Shown here: one piece after another, positions 2,932 to 6,740 of the stretch
How positions within the stretch are numbered: position 1 is the first letter of the stretch
How the letters are laid out: every line of letters starts with the position of its first letter
Assembly (NCBI GenBank): GCA_001803565.1
Contig: MHDQ01000269.1
Location: 1-6,740, forward strand
Length of the DNA stretch: 6,740 nucleotides
Origin: Nitrospinae bacterium RIFCSPLOWO2_12_FULL_45_22
GTDB lineage: Bacteria > 2-12-FULL-45-22
Direction of reading: 5' to 3'
Position numbers and translations under genes: made by a program
Notes under the pieces: model-generated
Told to the model about the DNA's origin: nothing
The model's database searches: none
What the model saw: only the letters and a program-made list of their open reading frames with translations

Positions 2932-3657
2932 ATGGACAAAAAGACTTTAGAAAGTTTTAAAGAGCTACTCCTTAAAGAACGGGAAAGACTAGCTGTAGAG
3001 GCGGAGAAAGCTAATAAAGAGTTCCAGATTTTAGGAGAGGATAGACCTATTGAGAGCGAAGAAAAGGCCAGTGTAAATATTGTCCTGGATGTATTGGCTA
3101 AACTAAGAGACCAGGGGAACAAAGAGTTAAAAGGTATAGAAGATGCCCTAACTAAAATCGAAGCTGGCGCCTATGGTATGTGCGAGGAGTGTGGTAAAAA
3201 TATCTCCGAGGCAAGGCTAAAGGTTTTACCTACAGCCCGGCTCTGTATAAATTGTAAAGAGATAATAGAAAAACGAGAAAAAATTGATTTGCTCCCCGAG
3301 AAGATTAAAGCTCCACAAAAAGTCTCTCTGGAAGAATATACGAACCTGTCTGATGAAGACCTAACAGAAACAATTTTTGAGCAGCTAGAAGAAGATGGAC
3401 GGGTAGATACTAGCAATCTTGAGGTCCTTGTCCAGGCTGGAAGAGTATTCCTCTCTGGCTCTGTTAGTTCCGAAGCAGATAGGCAGATAATCCTTCAATT
3501 AATCCCTGATAATATAGGGATAACCGATGTAGAAGATAAGCTGGAAGTAGCAGAATCTATCTACATTGCTGATGAAGCCGACTCCAAACCGCTTGATCAT
3601 CTTGAACTGGATGATGATCTTGAAGAGATAGATGAAGAAGACTTAGACCTTGACTAA
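2932..3657 (+). CDS. DksA/TraR-type C4 zinc-finger protein fused to a BON domain
   Basis: This 241-residue protein has no signal peptide. Residues 1-80 form a charged, helical, probable coiled-coil region. Residues 81-117 carry the DksA/TraR zinc finger, C84-x2-C87-x17-C105-x2-C108, with the family contexts YGMCEECG and PTARLCINCK. After a linker, residues about 139-207 read as a BON domain (DLTETIFEQLEEDGRVD, then VFLSGSVSSEADRQ and a closing DVEDKLEV). The tail (214-241) has 16 Asp/Glu among 28 residues. DksA-like proteins enter the secondary channel of RNA polymerase and alter promoter output. Counting back from the first zinc Cys, the E. coli tip residues D71/D74/A76 correspond without gaps to E41/E44/A46. 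E. coli DksA is about 150 residues, so the BON domain and tail are extra. GGAGAGG (2914-2920) lies 11 bp before the ATG, a slightly long gap. Zinc-finger call is firm, BON call good, cellular role inferred. Confidence 0.85.
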   Translation: MDKKTLESFKELLLKERERLAVEAEKANKEFQILGEDRPIESEEKASVNIVLDVLAKLRDQGNKELKGIEDALTKIEAGAYGMCEECGKNISEARLKVLPTARLCINCKEIIEKREKIDLLPEKIKAPQKVSLEEYTNLSDEDLTETIFEQLEEDGRVDTSNLEVLVQAGRVFLSGSVSSEADRQIILQLIPDNIGITDVEDKLEVAESIYIADEADSKPLDHLELDDDLEEIDEEDLDLD

Positions 3658-5331: not shown

Positions 5332-5424
5332 CCTTTTATTTAATTTTTTTATTAATTTTTCTCTTCATTTGACTTGCCTTTTGAAAGGAAGAAGTTTTAC
5401 CTAGTTGAAAAGGAGGAAAAATAT

Positions 5425-6740
5425 ATGAATGTCTTCAGGAAGGTCTGGGGTATTTTCTCTTCTAAGTCCTGGTGGTTAATAGGCAACCCTAAAGTAGAAC
5501 AGACACAGCGCTTAGAGATCCTAGACCATGCCCAGGCCATAGTAAAAGCTGCCCAGGATTTAGAGAGTATCGCAGTGGGTTATGCCCCATTAGCAGAGCT
5601 ATTATTCCCCGTAGGAGAGATATTTAAAGATAGGCCGGTAGGATTGGGTAGCCAGCGTATACCCTGGGAGCCCAGTGGGCTTCATACCGGTGGAACTTCG
5701 CCGGTAATCCTGAAAGAAGCAGGGGTTATCTTTGGATTAATCGGACATAGAGAAGCCCGGGATGACCTTGGCGAAGGCCCCCATCTCAATAAACAGATAA
5801 GAATAGCGTTGGATTATGGCATTATCCCTATCTTATGCTGTGGAGAGCCAAAAGGTTCCCTGGTAGAGTCAGAGACTACACGGGAAAAGGCTTTAAAAGC
5901 AGAATTACTACCAGCCCTCGAGGGGTTTACCGCCGAGGAACTCCTTCAGGGACAGCTCACCATAGCTTATGAGCCGGGTCATGTTATTGGGTTGGACCAA
6001 CCTGCAGATATGGGCTATATAAGGAGCGGATTCTCCCTGATAAAAAAGATTTTGCTGAAGCATAATCTGGAAGGCTTAGCTAAAAAGGGGAGACTGCTCT
6101 ATGGTGGTGGGGTAAATTCCGATACTATCCAGCAGGTATGGGGCCTGGATAGGCCGACCAAGGTCTTCTCGGGCGAGAACTGGGCAGGTTTTCTAGTAGG
6201 TAGGGCCAGTGCCTCACCAGACTTTATGGATATGATGGAAAAATGGCAAGCCAAATTAGGCCGGTATCGGGATAGGAGTAAGGTCTTCCTGATGGAGGAG
6301 GATAAGACGGGAGTCGAGAGGTTAGAAATACCTCAGATAGCCCCCCCCCAAAAGAAGGTTAGGGTAGCCGTCTATGGCATAGGCGAAGTGGGAGTTGGGT
6401 TTATAACCTCGGTCTTCAAAGAAGATAAAATAGACATTGTACAGTTGTTCAATATGGAAGTGGATGCAGAGGACATCCGGGCAAGGATATATAAGAGTCT
6501 GTTTATTGATAAAGATAAGGTATTTATAGATGACCACCATGTCGTGATAAAGGATGAGGTCGCCGTGCAAGATGAGATTGAGATTGATGGTGAAATCTTT
6601 AATCTAAGAAGCTTATTGAACAGCATGGTCAATGACCATAGCAAAATAACGAAGGTTTTACGGGAGCAGAAGATGCTGGTAACCCCGGCCCATGACCCCA
6701 GAGAAGCAGCCTCCCAGTTGGTAAAGGATATAGATATTGT
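5425..6740 (+). CDS. Triosephosphate isomerase-like domain fused to a GAPDH-like NAD-binding domain, 3' partial
   Basis: The frame is open from ATG 5425 to the right edge (438 codons seen). AGGAGG (5411-5416) sits 8 bp upstream, a strong start. Residues about 16-275 are a TIM-barrel like triosephosphate isomerase, which interconverts glyceraldehyde-3-phosphate and dihydroxyacetone phosphate. The catalytic set is present: N21 and K23 (GNPK for GNWK), H108 (GHREAR for GHSERR), CCGE at 138-141, and E183 (AYEPG). The phosphate-gripping parts differ: loop 6 reads PGHVIGLDQPA, YGGS becomes YGGG (226-229) and VGGAS becomes VGRAS (258-262). After a linker (about 285-309), residues 310-438 resemble the start of GAPDH: VAVYGIGEVG (GxGxxG at 318-323), DIVQLFN then DAEDI, EIDGEIF, and DP...DIDIV where GAPDH has DP...VDIV. 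The GAPDH catalytic Cys region would lie beyond the edge. TPI homology is firm; the GAPDH call is moderate, and the substrate is uncertain. Confidence 0.8.
   Translation, partial: MNVFRKVWGIFSSKSWWLIGNPKVEQTQRLEILDHAQAIVKAAQDLESIAVGYAPLAELLFPVGEIFKDRPVGLGSQRIPWEPSGLHTGGTSPVILKEAGVIFGLIGHREARDDLGEGPHLNKQIRIALDYGIIPILCCGEPKGSLVESETTREKALKAELLPALEGFTAEELLQGQLTIAYEPGHVIGLDQPADMGYIRSGFSLIKKILLKHNLEGLAKKGRLLYGGGVNSDTIQQVWGLDRPTKVFSGENWAGFLVGRASASPDFMDMMEKWQAKLGRYRDRSKVFLMEEDKTGVERLEIPQIAPPQKKVRVAVYGIGEVGVGFITSVFKEDKIDIVQLFNMEVDAEDIRARIYKSLFIDKDKVFIDDHHVVIKDEVAVQDEIEIDGEIFNLRSLLNSMVNDHSKITKVLREQKMLVTPAHDPREAASQLVKDIDI
6341..6349 (+). repeat. C9 homopolymer in the linker of the fused gene
   Basis: Nine consecutive C's encode Ala-Pro-Pro and the first base of Gln, between the TPI-like and GAPDH-like domains. 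The reading frame across the fusion depends on this count. One base fewer reaches a TAG after about nine codons, and one more reaches a TAG sooner, either way leaving a stand-alone TPI-like protein of roughly 310-315 residues. Confidence 0.9.

Follow-up and report, generated by a model that had tools for sequence, protein, structure and literature searches.

The window, that is, the whole stretch of DNA analysed here, is a complete contig (C269) of 6,740 bp from a 3.67-Mb assembly (G000) of 321 contigs, which is 85% complete. The last gene of the window, on the forward strand, is a stop-free frame running from an ATG at position 5425 to the contig end at 6740, where it is cut after 438 codons. 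It stands alone behind a divergently oriented sigma-factor gene and, as the preliminary description had stated, is served by a single ribosome-binding site, AAGGAGG at 5410-5416, 8 nt before the ATG. Further upstream in the window, at 2932-3657, a single protein combines a DksA/TraR zinc finger with a BON domain.

The encoded protein begins with a triosephosphate isomerase (TPI) barrel comprising residues 17-272 (5473-6240), delimited by the Pfam TIM profile (5.7e-35) and by alignment with 29 canonical TPIs. The codons of the catalytic residues are N21 (5485), K23 (5491), H108 (5746), E110 (5752) and E183 (5971). The phosphate-gripping loops 6-8 that follow (5977-6204) are altered, with G185/H186 in the place of V-W, G229 for S and R260 for G. 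A linker at 6250-6351, variable between copies of the gene, leads to the first part of a glyceraldehyde-3-phosphate dehydrogenase (GAPDH) domain at 6352-6738, which corresponds to the NAD-binding half and carries GxGxxG from 6376 and N343 (6451) at the position of the cofactor Asp. Nine consecutive C at 6341-6349 lie exactly at the domain junction and occur in the window copy only; a one-base slip there, in either direction, would bring a stop at 312-313 aa and leave the TPI half alone. The last ~129 residues form a Rossmann domain that scores 12.9 bits with Pfam Gp_dh_N. As this lies below the cut-off of 31.7 bits, membership of the GAPDH family is not decidable from the window alone, and the catalytic GAPDH half, which falls beyond the contig end, was read from two further contigs of the same assembly (C92 and C98) and from a second genome (G001).

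Contig C92 holds a full-length second copy as a 726-aa frame (C92:23661-25838), whose true start is probably Met 26 and which is 84% identical to the window gene over the 438 shared residues. The copy in G001, a groundwater metagenome-assembled genome that is 68% complete and placed by NCBI in 'Nitrospinota', has 714 aa (G001:C61:10459-12585, contig JACOWJ010000025.1) and is 68% identical. Both full-length proteins have the same order of domains, namely TPI barrel, variable linker and both GAPDH domains, and the frame is intact in both, although their source genomes belong to different families. The proposal that a bacterium carries an in-frame fusion of TPI followed by GAPDH is thus borne out by the frame and by both enzyme families. 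Contig C98 opens with a 136-aa GAPDH tail that is 95% identical to C92. The first 86 nt of C98 and the last 22 nt of the window are identical to C92, as would be expected if the assembly had broken at a repeated stretch. Judging from these ends, C98 probably carries the 3' end of the window gene, with ~130 codons missing between them. The DNA identity between window positions 5425-6738 and the C92 copy (L002) varies along the gene from 57% in the linker to 97%, an unevenness that could reflect gene conversion.

The Pfam TIM profile (PF00121, cut-off 20.1 bits) gives 121.4 bits for the window gene, 112.5 for the C92 copy and 127.9 for that of G001. For the comparison of active sites, the fusion proteins were aligned with the 29 canonical TPIs and with 14 canonical GAPDHs. 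Likeness to an orthodox TPI lies in the barrel and in the catalytic residues N, K, H, E and E, since the equivalents of Asn11, Lys13, His95, Glu97 and Glu165 are kept in all three copies (N46, K48, H133, E135 and E208 in C92 numbering). The differences, likewise shared by the three copies in each loop, concern loop 6, which reads PGHVIGLDQP for PVWAIGTGKT (V-W to G-H and T-G to L-D), loop 7, which has YGGGV for YGGSV (S to G254, C92 numbering), and loop 8, with VGR for VGG (G to R285, C92 numbering). A 9-residue insert separates loops 7 and 8, and the N-terminal motif is GNPK or GNAK. The equivalog cut-offs for orthodox TPI are missed by a wide margin (TIGR00419, 45.5 against 130.6 bits; PRK00042, 79.9 against 293 bits). 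The Foldseek and VIA lists of structural matches for the model of the 714-residue G001 protein were taken up by GAPDH chains, and the TPI half is therefore assigned from sequence evidence.

The C-terminal half belongs to the GAPDH family in spite of its divergence. The Pfam models named in the preliminary description gave a mixed answer: TIM and Gp_dh_C exceed their cut-offs, the latter with 29.8 bits in C92 and 31.9 in G001 against 24.4, whereas Gp_dh_N stays below its own (about 13 against 31.7 bits). A single-sequence search with the GAPDH part of C92 matched solved GAPDHs with E values down to 2e-19. The catalytic Cys and His, which had been expected beyond position 6740, are present as C522 and H552 of C92 (Cys149 and His176 equivalents) and as the same residues in G001, within the motifs SCT(S/G)NC and HSKTNSQQ. 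The common fold and the equivalents of S148, C149, T150, H176, T179, T208, R231 and N313 thus link the fusion to type I GAPDH (PF00044/PF02800, TIGR01534); the residues kept in C92 and G001 are S521, C522, T523, N525, H552, T555, T581, R606 and N707 in C92 numbering. The fusion departs from type I GAPDH in an insert in its N-terminal GAPDH domain, in Asn (N366) for the cofactor Asp, in Ser (S557) for D181, in PKEE for RRAR, by which the R195 equivalent is lost, and in the lack of GFGRIGR, the wording of which had already been missed in the window and in which alignment with canonical GAPDHs places E344 for an R (C92 numbering). In Bacillus GAPDH, Asp32 makes for a preference of NAD to NADP, and Arg195 contributes to the binding of inorganic phosphate. 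With the change of Asp to Asn and the loss of the R195 equivalent, the fusion may deviate from canonical GAPDH in its choice of coenzyme and in the phosphorylating step.

Modelled by AlphaFold2, the full-length protein of G001 has a pLDDT of 77, and its residues 322-714 superimpose on GAPDH 1npt with Z 38.6 and an rmsd of 2.2 A over 324 aligned residues; the GAPDH half folded alone reaches a pTM of 0.81. Canonical GAPDHs were among the AlphaFold2 inputs, and some of these were in part wrongly aligned; the modelled fold, not being independent of the sequence evidence, supports it without replacing it. The models for 2,4-diaminopentanoate and homoserine dehydrogenases match the window part weakly, but a Rossmann family unrelated to GAPDH is excluded by the C-terminal half, with Gp_dh_C found in the full-length copies and a GAPDH fold in the structure comparison. 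The suspicion that the Rossmann half is a divergent dehydrogenase was well founded, as it shows about 25% identity to canonical GAPDHs and scores 96.8 bits with the type I model TIGR01534 against a cut-off of 367.2. The models for erythrose-4-phosphate dehydrogenase (TIGR01532, 56.3 against 530.6 bits) and for ArsJ-associated GAPDH (NF033735, 90.6 against 450 bits) are missed as well.

Both halves are under purifying selection. Between the window gene and C92, dN/dS is 0.15 in the TPI half, 0.21 in the N-terminal part of GAPDH and 0.5 in the linker; between the C98 tail and C92 it is 0.06. Compared with canonical enzymes, the TPI half has a median identity of 29% and the full GAPDH half one of 24-26%, against 50% and 54%, respectively, among the canonical enzymes themselves. 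In trees of each half, the fusion sequences form one group with full support, outside all canonical sequences and on very long branches of ~6 changes per column, which are saturated, so that the origin of either half is not placeable. The best explanation is that the fusion represents a paralogue that has diverged strongly and that, at least in G001, is retained alongside ordinary gap-pgk.

The genomic setting differs among the three loci. The C92 copy starts 14 nt after a TauE/SafE-type exporter gene and is followed by cysD/cysN-type genes, of the sulfate-activation type, and the G001 copy follows spoVG. Neither the window locus nor that of G001 has TauE or cys genes, and pgk adjoins the fusion at none of the three. 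At L042 there are two small genes of the 23S rRNA intervening-sequence type, one separating the cysD- and cysN-like genes and one following them (12901-13281 and 14734-15048). Canonical GAPDH and PGK genes lie side by side on another contig of G001 (C59), and no bacterial-type TPI was found in that genome apart from the fusion. Neither PGK, canonical GAPDH nor bacterial-type TPI was found in the 85% complete source assembly apart from the fusion, and because PGK is missing too, a canonical operon may lie in its unassembled part. The source assembly also encodes a 496-aa protein resembling archaeal-type TPI (L005, 520-2010, reverse strand, on G000:C238; PRK04302, 100 bits), which has an insertion and is extended at its C-terminus. 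A search of 145 genomes, G001 included, gave no match to it at E 1e-12 outside the source assembly.

Taken on its residues, the gene is a rare bacterial TPI-GAPDH fusion in which the catalytic residues are intact and substrate recognition appears altered. Both active sites look competent; activity, substrate and the coupling of the two steps are what we infer. The reading that we favour, with some reserve, is a bifunctional, specialised isomerase-dehydrogenase, a diverged paralogue beside gap-pgk that probably differs in its preferred substrate or coenzyme or in the direction of flux. The N-terminal TPI-type barrel would interconvert a ketose phosphate and an aldose phosphate, and the flexible linker would join it to the C-terminal GAPDH-type dehydrogenase, which would oxidise that aldehyde, or in the reverse direction make it, via a cysteine thioester with NAD(P). 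Since G001 has an ordinary gap-pgk pair, the fusion looks extra and specialised rather than simply the glycolytic pair. A bolder proposal, which we put forward only tentatively, is that in this bacterial phylum a two-step enzyme built from TPI and GAPDH has left glycolysis for an undescribed pathway, the two halves having been re-tuned together for a new substrate.

The fusion might instead be the organism's usual TPI and GAPDH of glycolysis or gluconeogenesis, joined and fast-evolving, that acts on dihydroxyacetone phosphate and glyceraldehyde 3-phosphate and feeds PGK. In glycolysis the two steps directly follow each other, the core catalytic residues are all kept, and at least the TPI half may serve as the functional isomerase, given that neither genome showed another of bacterial type; in the source assembly the fusion may even be the main glycolytic pair. 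We nevertheless consider this rather unlikely, as PGK is adjoined by the canonical GAPDH in G001 and by the fusion at none of the three loci, and as loops that are near-invariant in the 29 canonical TPIs are altered. The altered phosphate and cofactor residues, together with the gap-pgk pair of G001, make a different or specialised substrate just as likely as glyceraldehyde 3-phosphate. The channelling of an aldehyde phosphate between the two halves, put forward in the preliminary description, may accordingly concern another aldehyde, if it occurs.

The specialised isomerase-dehydrogenase can also be imagined in a narrower form, as an enzyme of a side pathway acting, e.g., on a tetrose phosphate or on a sulfonate analogue of triose phosphate. 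Phosphate-recognition residues are altered in both halves, including the lost R195 and D181 equivalents, the C92 copy lies between exporter and sulfate-activation-type genes, and the solved relatives of TPI include a tetrulose-phosphate isomerase (11ef). This form is improbable as it stands, because the other two loci have no TauE or cys genes and the erythrose-4-phosphate dehydrogenase and ArsJ-associated models score far below their cut-offs. Another possible meaning of the substitutions in TPI loops 6-8, at the cofactor Asp and at the R195 equivalent is that catalysis in one half is no longer efficient. That only one half is an enzyme and the other a regulatory or scaffolding remnant would agree with how strongly the TPI loops and the GAPDH S-loop region have changed, but it is quite unlikely in view of the kept catalytic residues and of purifying selection in both halves. 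An assembly, sequencing or frameshift artefact, which the cut at the contig end and the C run at the junction might suggest, can be dismissed, as full-length fused copies lacking that run, 68% identical and with intact frame, occur on an independent contig (C92) and in an independent genome of another family (G001).

The interest of the preferred specialised enzyme lies in the bacterial occurrence of a fusion otherwise documented in eukaryotes and in the parallel changes of substrate-binding residues in both halves. It offers a compact test case for the question of whether consecutive steps become coupled when their enzymes are fused, and for the way in which two enzymes that rank among the most conserved can be re-specialised.

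The same architecture was sought in other genomes, with success in G001 and with no third genome among the 386 searched (protein search at E 1e-23 and a DNA signature of loop 6); the phylum is represented in this collection by two genomes only, those described here. A scan of genome contigs with a few short peptide patterns returned G001 only, viral contigs contained no fusion, and plasmids gave no match covering most of the protein. Canonical-looking TPI and GAPDH halves were fused in one frame in none of 60 genomes. No description of a bacterial TPI-GAPDH fusion was found in the literature searched, outside which most subscription journals lay. A known bacterial fusion that includes TPI is the PGK-TPI protein of Thermotoga (PRK13962), of which an example was found in G227 (L046). 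Its partner is PGK, N-terminal to TPI, whereas here the partner is GAPDH and C-terminal; a fusion of the PGK-TPI type is excluded, as the protein has no PGK domain.

The closer counterparts are the eukaryotic TPI-GAPDH fusions of stramenopiles, some Rhizaria and Thecamonas, which are equipped with mitochondrial targeting sequences and for which a mitochondrial location has mostly been predicted or demonstrated (PMC3527533, PMC6198282, PMC5715807). They share with the bacterial protein the same two enzymes in one polypeptide and a host that also has separate GAPDH and PGK. The bacterial barrel, in contrast, begins no more than about 20 residues after the first Met. Whereas the Blastocystis fusion construct starts with the canonical TPI motif GGNWK (primer, PMC6198282), the bacterial fusion has GNPK or GNAK, and both of its halves are far from canonical.
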